Source of the DNA: Phycisphaeraceae bacterium
Lineage (GTDB): Bacteria > Planctomycetota > Phycisphaerae > Phycisphaerales > UBA1924
Length of the DNA stretch: 64,000 nucleotides
Direction: 5' to 3'
Assembly: GCA_019454185.1 (NCBI GenBank)
Contig: CP075368.1
Coordinates: 62,001 to 126,000 of the forward strand
Shown here: one piece after another, positions 2,048 through 27,158 of the stretch
Layout of the letters: each line of letters begins with the position of its first letter
How positions within the stretch are numbered: the first letter of the stretch is position 1
The notes under the pieces: generated by a model
Databases searched by the model: none
Told to the model about the DNA's origin: nothing
The model's input: the letters and a program-made list of their open reading frames with translations, nothing else
Made by a program: the position numbers and the translations under genes

Positions 2048-2842
2048 ATGCACACCTCCCACACAGCAAGAAGCGTCCTCTGCGTCTCGACCGCGTTCCT
2101 GTGCAACACCGCGTGCGCGGAGATCAGATCGAGCATCTCCTTCGGGGGCGGTGGACCCGATGTGTTTCTCTACCAAATGACCGAGCCGCTCCATGGCAGT
2201 CAGTCGCTCATCTACCGCGAGGTGCAGGAAGGGACACGCAACATGCGGAGCGAGATCTCATGGGGAGATCCCGCGATGAAGTGGTCGATTATGAGCCGCG
2301 AGGGTTCTTTCGGCTCCGAGTTCGAGTCGTACCAGTCCACGACGCTCGAAGTGAAACGGAAGCGGAGCGAGCTGAAGTGGCTGTCGCCTGGGGGTGAATG
2401 GAAGACCTCTCGCGTCGATACCTACACGCCGCAAGTGTCGAACGTGGTCCTCGACGACGCCACCATCGACGCGAGTTTCACGGGCTTCGGCGGGCTCCTC
2501 GGCAGCATCACATCGCTGGGTTTCTCGAGCTCGATCAAGAACGGCACGATCACGTACACGGTGACTAACAGCGGCGACCAGGACGCCCATGTGAAGTGGG
2601 CCGCTGCCTCGATCGACATCCTGGTGCCCAAGAACAAGTCGCATTCGGTCAGCGTGCGTTCGCCCCGGAATGCGGTCGAGCGCTACGGCGTCGCGATTTT
2701 CAACTGGGATCCTGACGGAGTCGGGGCACTCCCTATGGAGTTGCCGCTCATGCACTTTGCACGCCCTGCAAAGGTCCCGACCCCCGGCACGATGGCGATC
2801 GCGGGCATCGCCGGATTGGTCATGGCACGGCGACGCCGGTGA
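2048..2842 (+). CDS. PEP-CTERM-type exported protein, paralogue 2
   Basis: A 264-residue secreted protein, one residue shorter than its upstream neighbour and clearly related to it. The signal peptide is about 1-24 (ends CNTACA). The body contains SSIKNGTITYTVTNSGDQ, matching the first paralogue. The tail is VPTPGTMAIAGIAGLVMA then RRRR, a PEP-CTERM-like sorting signal. The start at 2048 is preceded by AAGG with 7 nt spacing. The N-terminal halves are more diverged than the C-terminal halves. The function is unknown; the pair probably serves at the cell surface. It is convergent with clpC, with a shared hairpin between them. Confidence 0.83.
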   Translation: MHTSHTARSVLCVSTAFLCNTACAEIRSSISFGGGGPDVFLYQMTEPLHGSQSLIYREVQEGTRNMRSEISWGDPAMKWSIMSREGSFGSEFESYQSTTLEVKRKRSELKWLSPGGEWKTSRVDTYTPQVSNVVLDDATIDASFTGFGGLLGSITSLGFSSSIKNGTITYTVTNSGDQDAHVKWAAASIDILVPKNKSHSVSVRSPRNAVERYGVAIFNWDPDGVGALPMELPLMHFARPAKVPTPGTMAIAGIAGLVMARRRR

Positions 2843-2910
2843 ACTCAGCACCGCTTCTCCCGGATGACGCGGAGTTGTTCAACTTTCAACATGCGACGAG
2901 GTGAGAGAGA

Positions 2911-2942
2911 AAGGGGCACCCGGCGAAGGCCGGATGCCCCTT
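2911..2942. terminator. Bidirectional hairpin between PEP-CTERM paralogue 2 and clpC
   Basis: A 14-bp stem (2911-2924 with 2929-2942, one mismatch) with the loop GAAG, in the 130-bp gap between two convergent genes. It has almost the same sequence as the hairpin at 1770-1801. It probably ends both transcripts. Confidence 0.7.
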
Positions 2943-2972
2943 GTTCATGTCGTCAACAGCCGAGCGGCCGGT

Positions 2973-5525
2973 TCAGGTGCTCGGTGCGCCGGAGCCGACG
3001 GGCGTGTCGGTCGGAGCCGGTGCCGGAGCGGGTGGCGCCTCCGTCGGGACGAAGGTCAGCTTGTCCTCGCCCTCGAGGCGGGTCACCTGGACGGCGTTCT
3101 TGTTGTGCAGGTCGCCCGAGAGGAGCATCTCGGACAGCGGATCCTCGATGAACTGCCCGATCGCCCGGCGCAGTGGCCGCGCGCCGTAGTCCGGGTTGTA
3201 GCCGCGCTCGATCAGGAAGTCCTTGGCGAGCTGGTCGAGCGTCAGGTTGATGCCCTGTGCTGCGAGTCGCTTGCCGAGCTTGCCCGCCTCGTACTCGATG
3301 ATCTGGACGAGGTCCTCGCGGGTGAGCGGACGGAAGACGATGATGTCGTCGAGACGGTTGATGAACTCAGGCCTGAAGAACCGCTCGATCTCTTTCAGAA
3401 GGATCGTCTTGACGTTGTCGTGATCGACCGCGTCGGAGCGCTTCTGGAAGCCGAACCCGCCGCCACCCTTGATCAGATCAGCGCCGATGTTGCTCGTCAT
3501 GATCATGATGGTGTTGCGGAAGTCGACGTGACGCCCGAACGAGTCGGTGAGGCGTCCCTCCTCCATGATCTGGAGGAGCATGTTGAAGACATCGGGGTGC
3601 GCCTTCTCGACTTCGTCGAGCAGGACGACGCTGTACGGGCGGCGACGGATCTGCTCGGTGAGCTGGCCGCCCTCCTCGTAGCCGACGTAGCCGGGGGGCG
3701 CGCCGACGAGGCGGGAGACGTTGTGCTTCTCCATGTACTCGGACATGTCGAGGTGGACGAGGGCGTCCTCGTTCCCGAACATGAACTCCGCCAGCGCCTT
3801 GGAGAGCAGGGTCTTGCCCACGCCCGAGGGGCCGACGAAGATGAACGAGCCCATAGGACGCTTGGGGTCCTTCAGACCGGCGCGGGCGCGGCGGATCGCC
3901 TTCGAGACGGCCTTGATGGCCTCTTCCTGGCTGATGACCTTTTTGTGCAACTCTTCCTCGAGCTTGAGCAGGCGCTGGGCCTCGTCCTTCTCGAGCTTCT
4001 TGAGCGGCACGCCCGTCATCTTGCTCACGACCTCGGCGATGATCTCTTCATCGACGGTGCCGTCATACTCCTGAGAGCGCGTCCGCCACTGCTTCTGGAT
4101 GTCTTCCTTCTTCTTCCGCATCTGCTCGGCCTGATCGCGGAGCTCCGCGGCACGCTCGTAGTCTGCGGCCCGGACCGCCTCGTCCTTCGCGACCGTCAGC
4201 TTCTCGATCTCGGCCTCGAGCTCGGCGAGGTTCGGCGGCTTGGTCATGCTCTTGATGCGGACGCGGGCGCCGGCCTCGTCGATCACGTCGATCGACTTGT
4301 CGGGCTGCACGCGCCCCGTGATGTAACGCCCGGAGAGCTCGACGGCGGCCTTGATCGCCTCGTCGGTGATACGCACGCGGTGGTGCTGCTCGTACTTCTC
4401 ACGCAGGCCCTTGATGATCTCGAAGGTCTGCTCGCTGGACGGGGGATCGACGGGGATCGACTGGAAGCGGCGAGCAAGGGCCGCGTCTTTCTCGATGTAC
4501 TTGCGGTACTCGTCGAACGTTGTGGCACCGATGCACTGGATCTCGCCGCGGGCGAGCGCGGGCTTGAGCACGTTGGACGCGTCGATCGCGCCCTCCGCAC
4601 CGCCGGCCCCGACCAGGGTGTGGAGCTCGTCGATGAAGAGGATGACGTTCTTGGCGCGGCGGACCTCGGTCATGACGGCCTTGATGCGCTCCTCGAACTG
4701 GCCGCGGTACTTCGTGCCCGCGACCATCATCGCCAGGTCGAGCACGACCAGACGCTTGTCGAAAAGGATCTCAGGTACGTCGTTGGAGATGATCCGTTGG
4801 GCCAGACCCTCGACGATCGCGGTCTTGCCGACGCCCGCCTCGCCGAGCAGCACCGGGTTGTTCTTGGTACGCCGGCAGAGGACCTGGACCAGACGCTCGA
4901 TCTCGTTTGTGCGACCGATGACAGGATCGAGGCCGGACTCGCGTGCGAGCTCGGTCAGATCACGCCCGAACGAGTCGAGCGCGGGGGTCTGGCTCTTGCG
5001 CTTGCCGCCTCGTGCCTCGCCCGGACCGCCCGATGCCTGCTGGCCGGGGCCTGAGGGAGAGACCGATGAGGACTCTTCGCTCTCGGTGCCCGCGCCGAGG
5101 AGATTCAGGACCTCCTCGCGGACCTCTTCGAGCTTCAGGCCGAGGTTCATCAGCACCTGTGCCGCGACGCCGTCGTGCTCGCGCAGAAGGCCGAGCAGCA
5201 GGTGCTCGGTGCCGACGTAGTTGTGGTTGAGGTTGCGGGCCTCTTCGATGGCGTACTCGATCACCTTCTTGGCGCGGGGCGTCTGGGGGAGCCGGCCCAT
5301 CGTCACCATCTCGGGGCCTGCCTTGACGAGTTTCTCAACCTCAAGACGCACCTTGCGGAGGTCAACATCGAGGTTCTTCAGCACGTTCGCGCCGACACCA
5401 GAGCCCTCCTTCACAAGACCCAGAAGGATGTGCTCGGTGCCGATGTACTCGTGGTTGAACCGCTGCGCTTCCTGATTGGCCAACGCCATGACCTTGCGGG
5501 CTCGATCGGTAAATCTCTCAAACAT
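2973..5525 (-). CDS. clpC: ATP-dependent Clp protease ATPase subunit ClpC
   Basis: An 850-residue AAA+ unfoldase that feeds substrates to the ClpP protease. Two Clp-N repeats occupy about 1-145 ([15 protein letters not shown] and [15 protein letters not shown]). The first ATPase module has Walker A GEAGVGKT at 228-235. A UVR-like/middle domain follows ([12 protein letters not shown]), which is what separates ClpC from ClpB. The second module has GPSGVGKT and the ClpP-contact and D2-small regions. An Ala/Pro-rich tail ([12 protein letters not shown]) is unusual but short. The start at 5525 is chosen because AGGAG precedes it and the protein then begins [13 protein letters not shown] as in the family; an upstream ATG at 5579 lacks this. 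No CIRCE operator is visible upstream. Confidence 0.97.
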
Positions 5526-5956
5526 CGCGGTTCTCCTGCGGCTGTTCCCAGCCGTGGCCTGACACTCTCTTTGATGCATCCCACGTCGCGAATGGTCGCC
5601 GCACTTGCACTTCTTTCTCGCACAAACCGATCCGCAACGCGCTCTCTCGAACCCTACTTCCTTTCACCAACACGATTCGTGTCTTCCTACGTTTCGGATC
5701 AGCCCGAGTTCAGGAATCGTTGGGGTTGAAGCCAGCGAAGCCCACTCGACCAATCTGGATCGGTTCAAGTGCCGTGCCAGTTCGCCAAAGTCCTTCACGT
5801 ATCGCAAACGCCGTTCTGATTCGTCCGGATGCTGCCGAATCCGTCCGGGTATGCCAATTGGGCAGTCGCGCACATTGTGCGCCACGACTCTCCATACACG
5901 GGCACAGAGTGGCCCCAACTGGCCGTTTAGAGCCCATGTGGAACATCCCGCTCTGC
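5526..5956. other. Intergenic region upstream of clpC
   Basis: It holds the clpC leader with its AGGAG site next to 5525. No convincing gene, RNA gene or repeat was seen. Several short overlapping frames exist on both strands, but none shows domain-like composition. Confidence 0.5.
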
Positions 5957-8359
5957 TTACACGAGCCGAATCAGTTTACGACCAATCCATTCGGTGCACG
6001 CGAGCAACAGGAAGCAGATGAGCGCAAGTGGAGTGTCCCAAAGTGTTTGCACGGTGGGGGGGGTGACGATCCGCACCTGTCGGTTAGGGAGAACCTCTTC
6101 GAGATTCTCCAGATCCTGGAGTGTCAGCATGCGACCGCCCGTCTCCTGGGCGAGCACCGCCAGCAGGGCGTGATCGGTCTCTGGGGTGCGCATCTCGTTA
6201 TCTGGCAAGACAATAGAGAGCGGTTGCTGAAGCCCGATGCCGGCCAGCATCGGCTCGGATGCCTCGACTCGATACTCGCCCGGTTCAAGGGCGACCCAGG
6301 CGTCGGCATAGGTCCGGATCCCGCCCCGAACCACGCCGTCGGATTCCTGCTGAAGGCGCAGGTCGATAGGTGTGCGGCCGATCGAGTTCTCACCGATCGG
6401 CACGAGCCGAACGCGAATCGTGCTCGGCGCGGCATCAACCAGCGATTGATCCAGAAGGCGAACCGCGATCCGCACCGGTTGCTCAACCGGCACCACGGAT
6501 TGCGAGAGCTCAAGCACCGCCGGCAATCCCGTGCGTCCGACGCTGTCGCGTGCAAGCAGCCGCACGAGCGGCAGCCAGAACCGCTCCTGCAGCGTCTCGC
6601 CGCGCGCATACCGCCAACGCCAGGTCTCGTCCGTCGCCACATAGATCACGCGCCCCGCGCCGTATCGCATGGTCAGCACGAGGGGTGATGCTCCCCGCTG
6701 GCCGTCGGCCGCGTGCGCGAAGGCGAGCGTTTCCGCGCTCGGCTTCACGCTTCCCGGTTCGATTCGCTGAGCCCACCTGAGCAGCGACCAGCCGGTATCG
6801 GGGTCGGCCAGTTGTGCAGGCCAGCCGCGCGGCTGAGAGAGGTTGAGCAGGCCCAGCCGCTCCGATGCGGGCGCTGGCCTCACAACGACGGGTCGATCCC
6901 ATGCACGCACCGAGCCCGTCTGTCGCATGCCGGCACCGGAATCGCTCCCTATGGCGAACGGCAATAGGTCGGCCAGCGGCGTCTCGCCCCAGGCGTTCGG
7001 CGTTGAGCCGGGCCCGGCGATCCACAAGAGGCCGCCGCCGCGCATCGCGACGTGCTCGCGTATCTGCTGGAGCTGTTCGGTGGTGAAGAGATCGGGCCTC
7101 AGGTCGCCGAGCACCACAACGTCGAACGGAGCCCACTCCTCAGACGATCGGGGCAGCGAACGCAGCAGCTCGTCGCCCTCCTGAAGGAAGCGCTTCTCAA
7201 CGGCCAGAAGCAGATTCGACGACTTGATCGAGCCCTCGCGGATCAGCAGGTTCTTGACGTACCGGTACTCCCATCGCGGATACCCATCGAAGTAGACGGT
7301 GCGGATGGGGCGGTCGAGCAGGTCAACCGCGAATGACTTTGTGTTGTTCTCGGCGATCAGGTCGGCCCTTGTCGGGACGATGCGAACGCTCCAATCGCGT
7401 GAGCCCGCATCGGTATCGGAGCCGCTCAGCGTCAGCGTGACCGCCGCGGGGTCTGTCGGATCCGGCTCGGCATCGCTCAACGGCCGAGACTCGTACACGC
7501 GGCCCGTCAGTTGATCGATTAGTTCAACGGTCGCGTCGAGCCGATTCTCGGGGTCGCCTCTGCGCTCGATCCGCACCGACACGGGGATCGTGTCGCGCAC
7601 AAAGGCAACCGTCGGCGCGACGGCCTGTGTGACTGCCAGGTCGCCGATCGGTGTCGGGCTTCCGAGTGCAAGAGGGAAGACAGGCACGCGATCGCTCTGC
7701 AACCGGCGCAACAGCGTGCGATCGGGGGGCTCAGTCGTTCGGCCATCGCTCAGCAGGATCACGCCCGCGACGGGGCGTGCGGCGGTTCTCGCGAGCGCCT
7801 GCGAGAGCGAACTCGAGAGCGAGGTGCGCGAGCCGGTCGCGGGCGGAAGCGTGATCGGCGCGAGCCCGCGGTCGTCTTTGCTGGTTCTGATGGGAAACGC
7901 CGCGCCGTCGAAGCCCATGAGCAGCAGCTCGCGCTCCGCCGCGATCCGCTGGAGGGATGGGTGCGCACGCGACAACGCCTCGCGCAGCTGCTCGTCTCTC
8001 GTGATGCGATCCGTCGAGCGGCCCGGCACATCGACATCCGCGACCGACATCGACGCCGAGCGATCCGCCATCACGACCACCCAGTCCGGCTCGATGGTCT
8101 CGTTCTGTCTTTCGAGCCGCGGCCCGAGCACAAGCAGCACCAGAAACACGATCAGCATCGCGCGGACTGTCGCGAGCGCGACGCGTGCTCTTCTGCCCGA
8201 GTCGAGTTTCCAGTAGGCCCACATCGCGAGCAGGACCGCGCCGGTCACGACCAGAGCCCAGCCCCACGGTTCGAGCGGGCGCGTGAGCCCGAAGCGGACA
8301 TCCTGATCTCCGAATCGGAGTGTCTCGGTGGACAGAAGCCGGTTCAGCAGCTCGTTCAT
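5957..8359 (-). CDS. VWA/GATase-like membrane protein
   Basis: An 800-residue membrane protein, third gene of a DUF58-BatA-VWA operon. Transmembrane helices lie at about 33-50 and 62-80. A VWA domain with a metal-site motif DRSASMS (D99-x-S101-x-S103) follows. A Rossmann-like segment resembling a glutamine-amidotransferase fold (FDVVVLGDLRPDLF, then MRGGGLLWIAGPGS) lies in the middle. A last hydrophobic helix ends the protein (LALICFLLLACTEW). The start at 8359 overlaps the upstream stop as ATGA, which indicates translational coupling and rules out the longer frame to 8686. Related proteins sit beside MoxR-type ATPases; the role is probably envelope assembly or stress, but this is inference. 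A run of eight C occurs near the 3' end. Confidence 0.8.
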   Translation of the reverse strand: MNELLNRLLSTETLRFGDQDVRFGLTRPLEPWGWALVVTGAVLLAMWAYWKLDSGRRARVALATVRAMLIVFLVLLVLGPRLERQNETIEPDWVVVMADRSASMSVADVDVPGRSTDRITRDEQLREALSRAHPSLQRIAAERELLLMGFDGAAFPIRTSKDDRGLAPITLPPATGSRTSLSSSLSQALARTAARPVAGVILLSDGRTTEPPDRTLLRRLQSDRVPVFPLALGSPTPIGDLAVTQAVAPTVAFVRDTIPVSVRIERRGDPENRLDATVELIDQLTGRVYESRPLSDAEPDPTDPAAVTLTLSGSDTDAGSRDWSVRIVPTRADLIAENNTKSFAVDLLDRPIRTVYFDGYPRWEYRYVKNLLIREGSIKSSNLLLAVEKRFLQEGDELLRSLPRSSEEWAPFDVVVLGDLRPDLFTTEQLQQIREHVAMRGGGLLWIAGPGSTPNAWGETPLADLLPFAIGSDSGAGMRQTGSVRAWDRPVVVRPAPASERLGLLNLSQPRGWPAQLADPDTGWSLLRWAQRIEPGSVKPSAETLAFAHAADGQRGASPLVLTMRYGAGRVIYVATDETWRWRYARGETLQERFWLPLVRLLARDSVGRTGLPAVLELSQSVVPVEQPVRIAVRLLDQSLVDAAPSTIRVRLVPIGENSIGRTPIDLRLQQESDGVVRGGIRTYADAWVALEPGEYRVEASEPMLAGIGLQQPLSIVLPDNEMRTPETDHALLAVLAQETGGRMLTLQDLENLEEVLPNRQVRIVTPPTVQTLWDTPLALICFLLLACTEWIGRKLIRLV

Positions 8360-18350: not shown

Positions 18351-19715
18351 TTATGCGGGTTGCGCCAGCCGCTTGTATCGGGGTCGATTTGCGTACAGTT
18401 GGCGCAGGGGCTTTCGCTCAGCGGATGCGTCTAGCCATGCTTCAAGCGAAGCGGTCAAGGTTGTGGGGATAGTGAAACCCGGAATAACTCCCCTATAGAG
18501 ACACTGAATAAAGATCGCGTTCTCATGCCCCATTTCTGACGCGACATCAGCAAAATCAATCAAATCACGCCAGTCTGTTTGAGGGGCGTCGGGACTCGAT
18601 AGATATCGGCGGAACGTGTCCGCCGCATCGACATACTTGTCCGTTAACAGCATCAGAACCGCATGGTTTAGTACAGCCTGAGATTCGTTAGGATCTATCT
18701 GAAGGCATTTGTTATTGCACCCGATTGACTTTTCGAGGTCGCCTGCAAAGAAGTAATTTCTGGCCTGTGTGGCATAGACCCACTTAAACTCCGAATCGCA
18801 TAGTTGGATCGCACGGTGGGCATCAGCGATTGCTCTTTGCAGTTGGTCGGTACCGCCGGGCCCGGTTCCGGGATACCAAGAAGTCTCCATCAGACATAGG
18901 CAACACATGTGACGGATGTATTGCCTCCGATCATCGTCGGCTGGCAGTCTCCTTGAAAGAGCGGAGTCCAAATATTCAAGAATGTTGCCGGCGTCAGCAA
19001 GGCGCCGTTCGCACACGGCGACCATCCCGAGCGTTGCGAGCACTGCTTCGTGAAGCCACTCCGCACGTCTCCGCAGGTCATTCATGACAGAAGAGGGGCC
19101 GGCGGGTTCAATTCCGAGGTGTTGAATAAGGCGAGTGATAGACTCTCGGAACTTTGCATCAAGTTTCTGACTGGCCACCATGGCGTCGACTGTGTAGTGG
19201 TAGGTCGCAGAGTCCTTCGTGATGGGTGATACGGAAACCCGTAGTGACAGCGCAAACTTATAGCGTGCGGCTATACGTTTCTGGTCAGCAGTGGTGCTCG
19301 ATGGACTCGTCGGGAACGCGCGGAACGACATATAGGTCGCGCAGCGCGACGAACGGCCTATGTTGTCAAACGTCTTGCGCACAATGAGCAGGTCACTCGG
19401 ATCCACATGATGCGACGCAAAGGAGACGGCAATGCGAGTGCCTCGTCCTGTACGCCAATATACCTCGCGTGCGACAATCCATGTGGCTAATAGGATTGTG
19501 AACCCTGCTGCATACCAAGCGAGCACAGTCAAAAGTGGGAACTCGGATTTGGGTGAATGCTGCGCAGACCAATCTACATAGAGCCATGCCGGTGCGAAGC
19601 AAGAGAGCAGTCCAACCAAGATGAGACCAGCCCGCCAAGTCAGCCAGCCTTCAGCTGTTCGGAGCAGCAGAAGCATTGGACGTGCGATGGCATGTGCGTC
19701 GGCCAGCCAACTCAT
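18351..19715 (-). CDS. Membrane protein with helical-repeat C-terminus
   Basis: A 454-residue protein. Two transmembrane helices are at about 28-48 and 60-82, followed by a soluble domain. The C-terminal half (about 210-440) is alpha-helical and resembles TPR repeats: LATLGMVAVCERRLADAGN, YATQARNYFFAGDLEKSIGC, AVLNHAVLMLLTDKYVDAAD. The middle domain (GRGTRIAVSFASHHVDPSDL) is not recognised. Codon use is visibly less GC-rich than in groEL or argS, which suggests later acquisition. No Shine-Dalgarno or TAnnnT box marks the start, so a downstream ATG is possible. Function unknown. Confidence 0.6.
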   Translation of the reverse strand: MSWLADAHAIARPMLLLLRTAEGWLTWRAGLILVGLLSCFAPAWLYVDWSAQHSPKSEFPLLTVLAWYAAGFTILLATWIVAREVYWRTGRGTRIAVSFASHHVDPSDLLIVRKTFDNIGRSSRCATYMSFRAFPTSPSSTTADQKRIAARYKFALSLRVSVSPITKDSATYHYTVDAMVASQKLDAKFRESITRLIQHLGIEPAGPSSVMNDLRRRAEWLHEAVLATLGMVAVCERRLADAGNILEYLDSALSRRLPADDDRRQYIRHMCCLCLMETSWYPGTGPGGTDQLQRAIADAHRAIQLCDSEFKWVYATQARNYFFAGDLEKSIGCNNKCLQIDPNESQAVLNHAVLMLLTDKYVDAADTFRRYLSSPDAPQTDWRDLIDFADVASEMGHENAIFIQCLYRGVIPGFTIPTTLTASLEAWLDASAERKPLRQLYANRPRYKRLAQPA

Positions 19716-21996: not shown

Positions 21997-22305
21997 TCAG
22001 TCGATGACGGCGAGGACATCGTCCTCGGACATCATGAGGTAGTCGGTGCCGTCGAGCTTGATCTCGGTGCCGGCGTAGGAGGTGAAGATCACGCGATCGC
22101 CCTTCTTGACGGTGAGGGGGATGCGCTCGCCGGTCTCGGTGTTGAGGGCGCCGTCGCCGACGGCCTGGACGGTGCCGGTCTTGGGCTTCTCCTTGCCGGA
22201 CTCGGGGAGGTAGATGCCGGTGGCGGTCTTGGTCTCGGCATCGTCGCGGCGGACGAGGATCTTGTCGTGGAGGGGACGGATACCGGTGTCGGACTTCTTT
22301 GCCAT
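21997..22305 (-). CDS. groES: Co-chaperonin GroES
   Basis: A 102-residue co-chaperonin that caps GroEL. Recognisable features are IRPLHDKILVRRDDAETKTA at the N-terminus, the mobile-loop region around TATGIYLPESGKEKP, the conserved GDRVIFTSYAGTEIK strand, and the DYLMMSEDDVLAVI ending. AAGGAG lies 7 nt before the ATG. It is the first chaperonin gene of the operon; a receiver-like gene lies 107 nt upstream. Confidence 0.97.
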   Translation of the reverse strand: MAKKSDTGIRPLHDKILVRRDDAETKTATGIYLPESGKEKPKTGTVQAVGDGALNTETGERIPLTVKKGDRVIFTSYAGTEIKLDGTDYLMMSEDDVLAVID

Positions 22306-22374
22306 GGGAAACTCCTTCGAGGCAGTAAATGGATTGACGTGAGGGAATCAGCGAGACAGAGACAAGGGGAGAGA

Positions 22375-22401
22375 CATTCGGCATTGGCCATTCGGCATTC
22401 G
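22375..22401 (+). repeat. GGCCATTCGGCA word repeat, left copy
   Basis: CATTCGGCATTGGCCATTCG and a further repeat of CGGCATTC lie just downstream of the receiver-like gene. The core GGCCATTCGGCA reappears inverted at 23123-23154, upstream of the same gene. Confidence 0.5.
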
Positions 22402-22412
22402 CAGAATGGAGA

Positions 22413-22964
22413 TCAGGTGGGTGGTGAGTCGGGGATGCGGGGTGAATGCGGCCAGCGGCCTGCGTAGAAGCGTGAGAGGGCGCGGCGGAGGACTTCGAGC
22501 AGGAGTTCGAGGTCGCGGGTGCCGCTGGGGCGATCGATGACGGCGAATGCGCCGAGGCGGAGTGCATCGGAGAGTTCGCGTGAGTCGTCGCGTGTGGACT
22601 GTTGGCGTTTTACGGCGACGGTGGGGGGCGGGGCGTCGAGACGGGCGAGGAGTTCGAGGAGGCGGCTGCCACCTTCGGAGAGGTCTTGTGCGGCCGCGGA
22701 GCCGTCGAGGGGGAGCCCGAGATCGACGACGGCGATGTGGATGGGGTTTGCCTGTATGAGGTCTTTGGCTTCGCGTCCGGTGCCGGCGCGGAGGGACTGG
22801 ACGCCCATCGGTTCGAGGAGCCGCGGGAGTTGATCAACCCAGGACTCGGATCGCCAGCCGGCGTAGGAGAGGAGGAGGTTGAGCCGGCCGCCGGGCGCGG
22901 GGCGACCGCCGCGGGCGTCGGCCGGGGGTGTGCTGGCGTTGAACTCGTCGCGCACCGACATCAT
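22413..22964 (-). CDS. Degenerate response-regulator receiver-like protein
   Basis: A 183-residue protein resembling a CheY-like receiver domain. The pattern includes a first strand (RLNLLLSYAGW), an IHIAVVDLGLPLDG strand-loop with the Asp in the phospho-acceptor place, PTVAVKR, and ALRLGAFAVIDRPSGTRDLE matching the Ala/Lys strand region. The acidic pair normally at the end of strand 1 is missing, so phosphorylation may be lost or altered. The C-terminus has no DNA-binding domain. Two start ATGs are adjacent (22964, 22961). It ends 107 nt before groES and could be in the same transcript. Flanked by inverted GGCCATTCGGCA repeats. Confidence 0.6.
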   Translation of the reverse strand: MMSVRDEFNASTPPADARGGRPAPGGRLNLLLSYAGWRSESWVDQLPRLLEPMGVQSLRAGTGREAKDLIQANPIHIAVVDLGLPLDGSAAAQDLSEGGSRLLELLARLDAPPPTVAVKRQQSTRDDSRELSDALRLGAFAVIDRPSGTRDLELLLEVLRRALSRFYAGRWPHSPRIPDSPPT

Positions 22965-23122
22965 CGTGCCGATGCAGAGGCAAAGCGGGTGCCGGGCGAG
23001 AGGTGCGTGCAGGGTGTGATCTGACAAGGGTTTATGGTGGGGGGCGGGGCGGGTGTGGCGTGGGGTGCTGCCATGAGGTTGAGGGATGGGGGGTGCGGGT
23101 GCCAAGATGGCAGGCCGCGGAG

Positions 23123-23154
23123 AAATGGCCAAAGTGCCGAATGGCCAAAGGGCC
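23123..23154 (-). repeat. GGCCATTCGGCA word repeat, right copy
   Basis: AAATGGCCAAAGTGCCGAAT followed by GGCCAAAGGGCC. On the minus strand this contains GGCCATTCGGCA, the same core as 22375-22401 but in inverted orientation. Confidence 0.5.
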
Positions 23155-23196
23155 AGATGAAGACAGATGGCGTGTGCGGGGCGAGTTAGGGATGGT

Positions 23197-23202
23197 TAGG
23201 AT
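23197..23202 (+). promoter_or_regulatory. Possible -10 box before a 35-residue ORF
   Basis: TAGGAT with 6 nt to the ATG at 23209. It fits the TAnnnT spacing seen at other starts in the window. Confidence 0.3.
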
Positions 23203-23208
23203 GGGGGC

Positions 23209-23316
23209 ATGGAGATCATGCTGGGTGTTGTTGCGGTGCTGGGATTGGGGTTGGCTGCGGTGTGCGCGTGGTGGGGGATGAGAGCGCAGCAGGCGCGGGG
23301 GGAGGCGGTGGATTAG
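23209..23316 (+). CDS. Putative 35-residue membrane peptide
   Basis: A short ORF beginning MEIMLGVVAVLGLGLAAVCA and ending RAQQARGEAVD. It would be a single transmembrane helix with a polar C-terminus. Support is the hydrophobic pattern, the TAGGAT box 6 nt before the ATG, and GC-rich codons like those of native genes. It lies 34 nt before rmuC. Function unknown; it could be a chance ORF. Confidence 0.35.
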   Translation: MEIMLGVVAVLGLGLAAVCAWWGMRAQQARGEAVD

Positions 23317-23350
23317 CTTGTCTTTGTCTTCACTAAGGGATCAATAGCCC

Positions 23351-24805
23351 ATGACAAATGTGCTTTTGGTGGTCTTGGCTGTGACTCAACTCGTAACGGG
23401 CGTGCTCGTCATCGTGCTAGTCCGCAACCGGCGGGTTGATCTTTCACCAGTAATTGAGCGACTCGACAGGACTGAAGCGGCCACCGGCGCTGCATCGCAA
23501 GCATTGCGAGACGAGATATCGAGACTTCGCACCGACGGTGCGGAGCAATCTCGTCAACAGCGAGAAGAGATCAGCAACAGCCAGCGAGGGGCGTCAGACT
23601 CCCTCACGAGAAACTTGCGAGATATCGGTAGTCAACAGGCCGAAAGACTTGATGCTTTCGCCGACTTGATCGCGAGGGGAAACGCGGCAAATCAAGAAAC
23701 TGGCCGACTTCTTCGTGAGGAACTCGCGCAGTCAATCAGACTGTTTACCAGTACGGCGTCTGAACAGTCAAAGAACTGGGGGGAAGCGATTGACAGACGT
23801 ATGGAAGCACTCAGAGCCAGCGTTGAGCAGCGCCTCAAGGAGATTCAGGAGGATAACTCAAAGAAGCTTGAGTCGATCCGGCAGACCGTGGACGAGAAGT
23901 TGCACGACACTCTTGAGAGAAGATTGGGAGAGTCGTTCAAACTGGTGAGCGAACGGCTTGAGCTTGTGCACAAGGGGTTGGGCGAGATGCACACGCTCGC
24001 CTCAGGCGTGGGCGACCTCAAGAAGGTGCTTACGAATGTGAAAGCCCGAGGAACGTGGTCTGAACAGATGCTAGGCAATCTGCTAGAGCAAATGCTGACT
24101 CCAGAGCAGTACGAGCGAAACATCGCCACGAAGCCTGGCAGTGCCGAGAGAGTCGAGTTCGCGCTCCGCCTTCCCGGCAAGAACACGGACTCCGATGATC
24201 CCGTCTGGTTGCCGATTGACGCCAAGTGTCCAAAGGAAGACTACGAGCGAATCGTCGACGCATCCGAGCGTGGTGATCCCGACGCAGTTCGCGAGAGCGT
24301 TAAGCAGTTGGAGATTCAGATCAAGAATTGTGCGAGAGATATCGCGCAAAAGTACATCTCGCCGCCCGCCACGACGGACTTTGCCATCCTTTATGCACCA
24401 ACAGAAGGCCTTTACGCAGAGATTCTTCGATGCCATGGCCTTACGGAGTTCTTGCAGCGTGAGCATCGAGTTGTCGTTGCAGGACCAACTACTCTTGCCG
24501 CACTGCTGAATAGCCTTCAGATGGGCTTTCGAACGCTGGCGATTGAAAAGCGATCGAGCGAGGTCTGGAAGGTGCTATCTGCGGTCAAGACCGAGTTCGG
24601 CAAGTTCTCGTCGATCATCGAGAAGGTTAGGAAGAAGCTCTCTGAAGCGAGCAACACGATTGACGACGCTTCCGTCCGCACGCGAGCAGTTCAGCGAAAG
24701 CTGAAAGCGGTCGAAGAAATGCCCATCTTGGAGTCCTCCGCCGTGCTCGGAATCGATGCGGCGCATCTAGATGCAGACTCGGAGGCTGAGCCCGCGGAAG
24801 AGTAG
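23351..24805 (+). CDS. rmuC: RmuC family protein
   Basis: A 484-residue protein of the RmuC family, described in E. coli as limiting recombination between inverted repeats. An N-terminal membrane helix (about 3-23) is followed by a long coiled coil (about 35-230, many heptad-like Glu/Arg/Leu stretches such as ERRLGESFKLVSERLELVHK). The nuclease-like core follows: GVGDLKKVLTNVKARGTWSE, WLPIDAKCPKEDYERI and TTDFAILYAPTEGLYAEIL. The final region differs from the usual RmuC ending. Codon use is clearly less GC-rich than in flanking genes, and a remnant of a different, GC-rich rmuC tail lies directly downstream. This points to gene replacement by transfer. Confidence 0.9.
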   Translation: MTNVLLVVLAVTQLVTGVLVIVLVRNRRVDLSPVIERLDRTEAATGAASQALRDEISRLRTDGAEQSRQQREEISNSQRGASDSLTRNLRDIGSQQAERLDAFADLIARGNAANQETGRLLREELAQSIRLFTSTASEQSKNWGEAIDRRMEALRASVEQRLKEIQEDNSKKLESIRQTVDEKLHDTLERRLGESFKLVSERLELVHKGLGEMHTLASGVGDLKKVLTNVKARGTWSEQMLGNLLEQMLTPEQYERNIATKPGSAERVEFALRLPGKNTDSDDPVWLPIDAKCPKEDYERIVDASERGDPDAVRESVKQLEIQIKNCARDIAQKYISPPATTDFAILYAPTEGLYAEILRCHGLTEFLQREHRVVVAGPTTLAALLNSLQMGFRTLAIEKRSSEVWKVLSAVKTEFGKFSSIIEKVRKKLSEASNTIDDASVRTRAVQRKLKAVEEMPILESSAVLGIDAAHLDADSEAEPAEE

Positions 24806-24850
24806 ACGCAATAGCTATGTTTCTTGATCGTTTGTGCGTTGAGCAGCTCG

Positions 24851-25039
24851 ATGCTAAACAGCGCGGTGGAGCAGCACAACAGGTTCGCATCGAGCGTGGA
24901 GTCGCGGCTGTTGCCGACGATCCGGAAGTTCGAGGAGAGCGGCGTGAAGTCGGCGAAGGGGGTGGAGTCGTTGCCGGAGGTTGAGGTGAGGGCGAGGTTG
25001 ATTGAGGGGGTGGTGGAGGGGCCGGAGAGCCGGGGGTGA
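24851..25039 (+). pseudogene. 3' remnant of a second rmuC
   Basis: The frame reads NSAVEQHNRFASSVESRLLP then TIRKFEESGVKSAKG, a match to the usual RmuC C-terminus (Y/H-N-x-x-V-x-S-x-E-x-R-x-L-P-x-x-R-K-F-E-E-x-G). No RmuC core precedes it; the intact but compositionally different rmuC ends 46 nt upstream. Its stop overlaps the next gene as GTGA. This looks like the surviving tail of the native rmuC. Confidence 0.65.
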
Positions 25040-25659
25040 GCGACTCGGCGTTCATGCGTCATTGCGAGCGGGGAGGACGCGCGTTTCGGCGAGCCAGCGT
25101 GTTCGCGGTCGAGCCGAAGGCCACGAAGGATGGCACGGGCTGGATCGTGAAGGACAGCGGCGTGGTCTATTCGTGGGAACTGTTCATCGCGACGTTCTGT
25201 GTGCTTGCTTTTCTGCACACGATGTGGCTCTTTGCTCCGTACGGCGGCGTTTTGAGCAGGCCATGGATATTCGTGCTTGAGGCAACGATCGTTGCTTCGT
25301 ACGTGGCAGCGGCGACGTACACGAGTGCATGGACGGTGCGAGGGACTGAGGCGGTCGTGCGTCGCAAGGCGCTTGGCGTCACCTTCGTGAAGCAGAGCGT
25401 ATCGGATATTCGCCTCTGTCAATACCACGCGATCGTGCTGTATCGAAAGAAGATTGCGGGGTATACGCCAGTCACGCCTTTGCGGAATCGCGGTGCGGTG
25501 CTTGTCGTGCTCGATTCGTCGAGCCGGTTCCTGGTGCTGATGATGTCAGAGGGCGAGGAGGTGGAATCATACCGGGGTTGGAGTGGAGCTCGATACTCGT
25601 CCGTACTGGGGTTGCCGCTTGAGCATGCTGGTGTAATCGTCGTGCGAAACGCGTGGTGA
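25036..25659 (+). CDS. Membrane protein of unknown function
   Basis: A 207-residue protein with two transmembrane helices (about 48-70 and 78-100). The remaining beta-rich domain (GTEAVVRRKALGVTFVKQSV, GAVLVVLDSSSRFLVLMMS) resembles a small PH-like domain of bacterial membrane proteins, but this is a guess. The GTG start at 25036 overlaps the stop of the rmuC remnant (GTGA) with GGAG upstream, so it was probably coupled to the original rmuC. An internal ATG at 25054 is an alternative. A palindromic repeat array follows. Confidence 0.6.
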   Translation: MSDSAFMRHCERGGRAFRRASVFAVEPKATKDGTGWIVKDSGVVYSWELFIATFCVLAFLHTMWLFAPYGGVLSRPWIFVLEATIVASYVAAATYTSAWTVRGTEAVVRRKALGVTFVKQSVSDIRLCQYHAIVLYRKKIAGYTPVTPLRNRGAVLVVLDSSSRFLVLMMSEGEEVESYRGWSGARYSSVLGLPLEHAGVIVVRNAW

Positions 25660-25722
25660 GCAGAGGGCGTGTAGGGCGCGGATCTTCAGTCGCTCCTCGC
25701 ACTTCGTGCTCGTGCGCGACTC

Positions 25723-26101
25723 CGAGGCGTTCAAAGGATGCGCTGCGCGGGGGGCTTGTACCCAGGGCGACGCTCGTGGCTTCGCCACTCACTTGCCCTG
25801 GGCTCTGGCTAGGGCGGCCCGTTGGGCCTTGAAGGCAGCGGCGGCGCCTTTGGCGACTGGGAGGCGTTCTAAGGATGCGCTGCGCGGGGGAGTGTACCGG
25901 GGGCTGGCTTGTCGCTTCGCGACGGCGCTGCGCCCCCGGCAACGGTCGTGCGCCCTTGCGGGCGAAGAAGCGTCGCCGTTGGCGACTTGAAGGCGTTTAG
26001 AGGAAGCCGCTTCGCGGCGGAGTTTACCGGGGGTGTCGCTTATCGCTTCGCGATTGCGCTCCACGCCCCGGCTACGAGCGTACAGGGCTTCGCCCTGCTT
26101 A
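25723..26101. repeat. Array of palindrome-rich repeat modules (array 2)
   Basis: Three head-to-tail modules of about 110-130 bp (25723-25834, 25839-25968, 25970-26101). Each has the word GAGGCGTTC(A/T)AAGGA or a close variant (25724, 25861, 25989) and then a micro-palindrome such as GCCGCTTCGCGGC. A C-rich word CCCCGGC(T/A)A and a closing palindrome such as CGCCCTTGCGGGCG follow. Same family as array 1. No coding frame is credible. Confidence 0.75.
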
Positions 26102-26162: not shown

Positions 26163-27158
26163 CCCCGAGCTCGCGAGCTTTTTGCGTCATCGCTTCATTG
26201 CCTGTGTGTGTCGATCAAGGATGATGATGGCTTGGATCCATCGACGGACCCGCTCGATGCCGCGCACGTGCGGCGGGATAAGCCCCACATGGTGGGTCAT
26301 TTCCAGGCGTGCAAACACACGCTCGATCACGCGCCGGAGTGACAGCAGGCCCCTGCCGAAGCCCGTCATGCTCTGCTCCAGCATGTCGATGGCTCGACGG
26401 CGGTCCGGATGCGTTCCGGACCGCCGCACGCCGCGACCCACGCGGCAGTCCTTCCGCGGAACCACCAGTTGTCCGCCCTTGCACGCGCAGAGTTCATAGA
26501 GCTTCACGCTGTCGTAGTTCGAGTCGGCCAGCACATACCCGTTCAACTCCATGTCTCGCATCATCCGCTTGGCCATCACTGCTTCATGGCAGTGCATGGG
26601 CGTGAGACGCCAGGAGACGATCGAGCCCGCGAGATCGCAGATCGCATGGAGCTTGTAGCCGCGCAGTCCCCATGCGCCGAAGGTCGCGGTCCGGTCTCCG
26701 GAGTGCGAGGCGACGCGCAGGGCCTTGCCGTCAAGAGCCAGCACCAACGCTCCCGATGCAGAGACCAGATTCTCCGCCTCCGCCGCGGCAAGTAACGCCT
26801 GGACGCTGGTGGTTCTCAGCCGCCGGCTCATCCTGCTTGGCGAGGGCAATCGACCACGCCGCCACAACGGCCATGCATCGCGTCGGCACGCCCAGGAGGT
26901 GGGTCGTCGGTGCAAGACGGCCCAGAGAAAGGTCAGCACGATGTCCGCATCGGTGAAGGTGAAGCGACCGCCACGCGGGCTCCGATCCAGCTTCCGCACG
27001 CTCGCCGCCAACACCCTCCAACTCGCGTTGTCCATGCTCGGTCTCCTGTCTGGCAGCTCCACCAGTGGGACCGAGCATGGCATGAGCCATCAGATCGCGC
27101 AAGTCTCCACAATGGAAACCCTTGGAACACATGGCGCAAAATGCTCTCGCGCTCGGGG
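26163..27158 (-). mobile_element. Insertion sequence with DDE transposase
   Basis: An element of about 996 bp bounded by 24-bp terminal inverted repeats (26163-26186 and 27135-27158, 21 of 24 positions matching, outer end CCCCGAGC). It carries one transposase gene on the minus strand whose stop codon touches the left repeat. No target-site duplication is obvious. It lies between the last full module of repeat array 2 and a partial module at 27251, so it may have inserted into that array. Confidence 0.75.
26187..27035 (-). CDS. IS4/IS5-superfamily transposase
   Basis: A 282-residue DDE transposase. The three catalytic positions are readable: LALDGKALR (first Asp), YVLADSNYDS (second Asp) and the RVIERVFARLE helix (Glu). 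An N-terminal helical region (TFTDADIVLTFLWAVLHRRP) resembles the DNA-binding part of IS5-like enzymes. The start at 27035 has AGGAG 7 nt upstream; the in-frame ATG at 27083 would add 16 residues without a site. The gene is intact, so the element may still be active. Family naming beyond IS4/IS5 superfamily is not secure. Confidence 0.85.
   Translation of the reverse strand: MDNASWRVLAASVRKLDRSPRGGRFTFTDADIVLTFLWAVLHRRPTSWACRRDAWPLWRRGRLPSPSRMSRRLRTTSVQALLAAAEAENLVSASGALVLALDGKALRVASHSGDRTATFGAWGLRGYKLHAICDLAGSIVSWRLTPMHCHEAVMAKRMMRDMELNGYVLADSNYDSVKLYELCACKGGQLVVPRKDCRVGRGVRRSGTHPDRRRAIDMLEQSMTGFGRGLLSLRRVIERVFARLEMTHHVGLIPPHVRGIERVRRWIQAIIILDRHTQAMKR

Follow-up and report, generated by a model that had tools for sequence, protein, structure and literature searches.

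The question raised by this locus is how a complete rmuC gene came to stand directly ahead of a separate, GC-rich RmuC tail in the genome of a Phycisphaeraceae bacterium. The window, i.e. the whole stretch of 64,000 nucleotides that was analysed, had previously been interpreted from its letters alone, and this sequence-only reading held that the native rmuC was displaced by an incoming homologue, with the break near the 3' end of the old gene. Displacement is supported by the separate ancestries of the two gene types involved, by a head and a tail of the native gene that are both still in place, and by the intact native gene of same-genus genomes. The tail was indeed left behind, but the old gene is broken near both ends, and its head at 23209-23310 had been missed. 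In the following, A denotes the native RmuC type of the genus and B the type of the complete gene. We consider it very probable that the native A-type rmuC received, in matching orientation, a piece of ~1.55 kb that carries one complete B-type rmuC, and that native codons ~35 to ~431 were lost. The joining would be a case of illegitimate recombination at short homology, and the newcomer would have assumed the RmuC role and be expressed from the native upstream signals. The features on which the argument draws are the following.

22413-22976, minus strand: response-regulator-like gene (Pfam Response_reg at E 0.009, under the cut-off), which natively adjoins rmuC on its upstream side in the family.
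23166-23208, plus strand: native upstream region before the native start codon, conserved with G001 and G002.
23209-23310, plus strand: native rmuC head, which comprises 34 codons and includes the membrane-anchor stretch, recognised by identity to G001.
23305-23312, plus strand: 8-bp direct repeat GCGGTGGA, copy at the left junction.
23311-24860, plus strand: insert 1, ~1.55 kb, in place of native codons ~35 to ~431, seen as a colinearity gap relative to G001, G002 and G003.
23351-24805, plus strand: complete B-type rmuC, 484 aa, assigned by PF02646 (6.5e-72), the B clade, invariant residues and a predicted model.
24861-25039, plus strand: native rmuC tail (last ~60 codons) with the native stop at 25037-25039, recognised by identity, colinear DNA and a tree.
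24863-24870, plus strand: 8-bp direct repeat GCGGTGGA, copy at the right junction.
25041-25684, plus strand: insert 2, ~644 bp, with an ORF ending at 25659, seen as a colinearity gap relative to G002 and G003.
25685-25751, plus strand: return to native DNA beyond rmuC, with an identity of 97% to G002 and of 81% to G003 directly behind the rmuC stop of each.

Three same-genus genomes were found (G001, G002 and G003), and all of them contain an intact A gene whose two ends correspond to the head and the tail in the window. The head encodes MEIMLGVVAVLGLGLAAVCAWWGMRAQQARGEAV, of which 29 of 31 residues match the start of the intact G001 gene, and its DNA is 93% identical to that of G001 across 102 bases; its reading frame runs into insert 1 as a 35-codon ORF with a stop at 23314-23316. 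The tail, correctly identified at the outset as a GC-rich RmuC remnant behind the complete gene, is 74-83% identical to the terminal part of native RmuC in the three genomes, and its ORF covers PF02646 positions 255-290 with an E value of 0.042, which alone is below the cut-off. Neither the head nor the tail contains a frameshift. In all three relatives the tail continues the reading frame of the coding sequence upstream of it, an arrangement that had been named as an argument against displacement, but that sequence is of the A type and not of the B type. Colinear DNA links window positions 22301-23310 with positions 2460-3542 of the G001 locus, 24861-24989 with G001 4735-4863, and 25685-25751 with 4921-4987 of the G002 locus; the G003 contig starts just ahead of its rmuC. 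The complete gene therefore occupies the ancestral rmuC place, with native head, native tail and colinear flanks on either side. About 1.19 kb of the native gene is missing and ~1.55 kb stands in its stead, the borders of insert 1 being uncertain by several bases, and the ancestral A gene is lost, fragments of it being all that this genome has left.

The ORF at 23351-24805 encodes a full RmuC: in a profile search its product scored 242.5 bits against PF02646, above the curated family cut-off of 26 (E 6.5e-72), and it is the only full RmuC in this 3.80-Mb, one-contig genome. As the sequence-only reading had noticed, its codons are less GC-rich, with a GC3 of 0.631 against 0.919 in the tail, 0.80 in the head and 0.86-0.89 in the native genes of G001, G002 and G003. 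BLASTP gave at most 27% identity to the native types that were matched at E<=1e-5, and 50% identity to the RmuC of G021, another member of the family. Its ending, at first considered unusual, differs from that of the A type in lacking the A-type tail motif, but the B subfamily does without this motif and the ending is normal for B. The NCBIfam model of the E. coli-type RmuC is matched by the native A type (1e-25, below the cut-off), whereas the B type gives no match. The difference in codon usage could also be explained by an assembly error that fused the native gene with a B-type gene from a different organism, and the junctions are known from the assembled sequence alone; we find this scarcely credible for a one-contig genome in which native sequence flanks the insert in its proper order and no other full RmuC occurs.

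The phylogeny of the two pieces, proposed at the outset as a check on displacement, bears it out. In a tree of 102 rows, which used every second locus of the best 80 B loci, a starred branch with a value of 100 parts all 48 A rows from the complete gene and the B rows. In a tail tree of 105 rows and 63 columns, which left out the two divergent B rows L065 and L066, the tail groups with the A genes of G001, G002 and G003 at 100 (starred), and with all A rows at 99 (starred). The complete gene is thus of separate ancestry, and the claim of a foreign origin stands as far as the separate B clade is concerned, but its nearest sampled kin are B genes of the same family, although B spans many phyla. 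In a core-domain B tree of 56 rows, from which the A rows, L065 and L066 were left out, the window gene groups with those of G482 and G545 (98/89, starred; the bootstrap is unsettled), which represent two other genera of the same family and have their B genes at other loci. With the coiled coil included, the 102-row tree puts the complete gene loosely near Betaproteobacteria and another such tree leaves its placement open, and the place of the newcomer within B is therefore not firm in these trees. A profile scan of public genome contigs with an alignment of five B proteins, from which the best 80 loci were taken, yielded B loci from many phyla with a top identity of about 58-63%; among these 80 loci there was no close donor, the best sampled kin reaching about 69% over the core domain. 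Because no close donor was found, the direction and the source of the transfer rest on the trees. Based on the grouping with G482 and G545 in the core-domain tree, as set against the loose coiled-coil trees, a donor within the same family is possible, and the incoming piece of ~1.55 kb may perhaps have come from another of its members.

The junctions are compatible with more than one way of joining the DNA. In G001, GCGGTGCG stands at the native left end and GCGGCGGA at the native right end, and in the window both borders of insert 1 carry a copy of the 8-bp direct repeat, which fits joining at short homology as well as an 8-bp target duplication. It should be noted that at least 8 bases are shared by 3 of 1000 random pairs of window positions within 10 bp and by 77 of 1000 within 30 bp, and because the latter equal it so often, the repeat is weak evidence for the junctions. 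The flanks of insert 1 and any of the fetched B loci have no DNA in common beyond 20 native bases on the left, and attachment sites around the insert were judged by eye only. In the reading that we prefer, the repeat would mark both junctions of an illegitimate recombination at short homology, which may have proceeded in one step or as an insertion followed by a deletion. The repeat at both borders is also what would be expected if B had arrived as a mobile element, either a transposon-like unit or an integron-type cassette, that duplicated 8 bp of its target, the middle of the native gene being deleted later. Such an origin would suit the composition of insert 1, which is a single ORF with short flanks, as well as the second single-ORF insert 180 bp away and the transposase nearby (26187-27083). 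We nevertheless judge it unlikely, given that no inverted repeats were found flanking insert 1, that the insert has no second ORF of note, that native DNA is missing besides the foreign DNA gained, and that the nearest B genes, judged by their neighbours only, are not known as mobile.

The B type has a patchy distribution among the relatives of the window genome. It was found in 11 of 392 genomes of the phylum (E<=1e-30, own genome counted) and in 6 of 163 genomes of the family (E<=1e-25), and the three same-genus genomes are without it; PF02646 of any type is present in 166 of the 392 phylum genomes and in 53 of 61 near relatives. All six family genomes with B are without A. When B-carrying genomes were checked more widely, 15 of 17 had B alone, a divergent match in G244 (30% identity) being excluded from this count, and strict exclusivity of the two types was dropped because the other two, G055 and G056, carry both. 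These two genomes (loci L149 and L152 in G055, L150 and L009 in G056) belong to the same taxonomic order as the window genome, and the presence of both types in them is possibly an intermediate state. An A-type fragment in G054 (L147) was considered as a second remnant and rejected, as it sits at a contig end. Four genomes of genus g24 of the family (G026, G093, G153 and G229), which are 98-100% complete, gave no PF02646 match, and RmuC for this reason seems dispensable in part of the family.

The position of B in other family members bears on whether the window is a single case. Among the 32 A-type loci fetched from the family, 20 have the response-regulator-like gene, beyond which lie genes that we take to be groES and groEL, upstream of rmuC and divergent from it; in the remaining 12 it falls outside the fetched flank, which is short in several of them. 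In G458 and G442 the sole RmuC is B, which adjoins the same response-regulator-like gene but reads towards it. G441, a congener of G442, has A in the usual arrangement, and the DNA match between the stretches of G441 and G442 is confined to the groES-groEL side; for G458 and G442 the correspondence to A's place is read from the side of the shared neighbour. G482, G545 and G021 have B elsewhere, and the stretch fetched at the usual place is without rmuC (in G482 the contig there measures 6.1 kb). A search for A remnants beside B in these five genomes (E<=0.01) matched the B genes alone. Thus, three of the six family carriers of B have it at A's own place. Because B stands at A's place in G458 and G442, one of them with an A-carrying congener, we conclude that A was changed for B more than once in the family, at A's place in some cases and elsewhere, with loss of A, in others. 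A further-reaching idea, to which we give limited weight, is that the spot beside the chaperonin-linked response-regulator-like gene is an RmuC swap site, where B has landed at least two and perhaps three times, above what random insertion would give; either the two types together would be harmful or the position of RmuC would be required, and a single event would then bring B in and remove A.

The same data may be viewed in another way, namely that an ancestor of the family had A and B side by side and that its lineages lost one or the other. The adjacency of B to the usual neighbour of A in G458 and G442 would then follow, as would the presence of both types in G055 and G056, which are of the same taxonomic order. 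It is difficult to reconcile with the B gene of the window, which lies between the two ends of A and not beside A, with the absence of B from the same-genus genomes, and with the opposite orientation of B in G458 and G442. Moreover, the family B rows form a single clade in 0 of 200 bootstrap trees, and the starred branches do not force this. We hold this explanation to be very improbable.

As to the role of the newcomer, passages of the description of the RmuC family (COG1322/PF02646) give it an N-terminal membrane helix, a coiled coil and a small alpha/beta core that bears residues of the PD-(D/E)XK type, and present E. coli RmuC as limiting inversions at short inverted repeats and as a predicted cutter of recombination structures (PMC1189080). 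The predicted model of the complete RmuC (mean pLDDT 69.5) has an N-terminal helix at residues 2-25, an extended helical coiled coil and a small alpha/beta core with two strands at 270-274 and 285-290, and would thus have helix, coiled coil and core in common with E. coli RmuC as those passages portray it. Residues E269, D290 and K292 are invariant across 16 B sequences and are taken as the predicted PD-(D/E)XK-type site of the B type. A fold search with the model gave nothing significant in the PDB, its weak matches including the Shedu nuclease (E 0.065), and in a profile search of PDB chains the matches were limited to coiled-coil or helical proteins, e.g. apolipoprotein A-I. ShdA of the Shield system is described in passages of PMC10270631 as a membrane-anchored anti-phage nuclease with an RmuC domain, and a membrane-anchored RmuC domain, predicted in the case of the window, would be common to both. 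With respect to a defence role, PADLOC, in a library of 2023 that may lack Shield, returned weak or cross-family matches alone (RTasRmuC, 1.8e-7, and ZorA), and no defence-island context was seen around the window rmuC. Because the two types belong to a shared family and 15 of the 17 checked B genomes are without A, we infer that the incoming gene now performs the RmuC role, its product being a predicted membrane-anchored nuclease of the PD-(D/E)XK type.

The B gene would be read from the retained native upstream region (23166-23208), in which a scan found no sigma-70-like promoter, and the native head would now be part of a 35-codon leader ORF. One may then ask whether the head and the tail were retained for a function, the former as a leader peptide and the latter as a small tail protein, instead of being leftovers. 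Their frames free of frameshifts and the close identity of the head to G001 are in keeping with this, but the changes that each genome has of its own over 50 tail codons point in the direction of relaxed constraint: 4 amino-acid changes and 1 silent change in the window against 0 and 3 in G003, although these numbers are low and the corresponding values for G001 are 2 and 1. We give little credence to such a function.

Gene displacement in situ was reportedly treated by Omelchenko et al. in 2003, and the known cases of displacement have usually been inferred from trees, in general long after the event. In contrast to these cases, the window keeps both ends of the displaced gene in place with readable borders, and the preserved junctions show directly how large the transferred piece is, what was lost, in which orientation the piece lies and which native start was kept. 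The process itself is xenologous displacement in situ, in which the resident gene is of another lineage than the gene of the relatives, as is found here with the starred A/B split at 100 and A in the three same-genus genomes. This is a known kind of event, also in the terms used in passages of PMC1274311; what makes it of interest is that head and tail have survived and that the change recurs at one locus, and the double remnant together with the repeated change from A to B lifts the case somewhat above routine. A literature search, covering listings and selected passages, found no report of a displacement of rmuC. What the nucleases of the RmuC family do in the cell is still little understood, and the recurrence within one family makes the coexistence of two RmuC types in one cell testable, as well as selection on gene position.

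Directly behind the tail, insert 2 separates the native stop from the native downstream sequence; in G002 and G003, the rmuC stop leads almost directly into the equivalent of window position 25685 onward. The ORF ending at 25659 probably has its true start inside insert 2. It has a GC3 of 0.71 and is without a match in Pfam, NCBIfam or PADLOC; no relatives were found in 162 other genomes of the family, and among 391 other genomes of the phylum there were two weak partial matches alone (E 2e-4 and 6e-4). The GTGA overlap of the tail with the next gene, which had been regarded as inherited, is formed at the edge of insert 2, and the 162 other family genomes lack the next ORF. Further downstream, the DDE transposase at 26187-27083 (DDE_Tnp_1, 4.3e-17) apparently lies within one unit of a ~282-bp repeat, of which G001 has several tandem units (L036, about 5184-6314). 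On the other side of the locus, a 454-aa ORF at 18351-19715, which adjoins the presumed groEL, shows weak TPR matches and a GC3 of 0.563, which is low for this genome.
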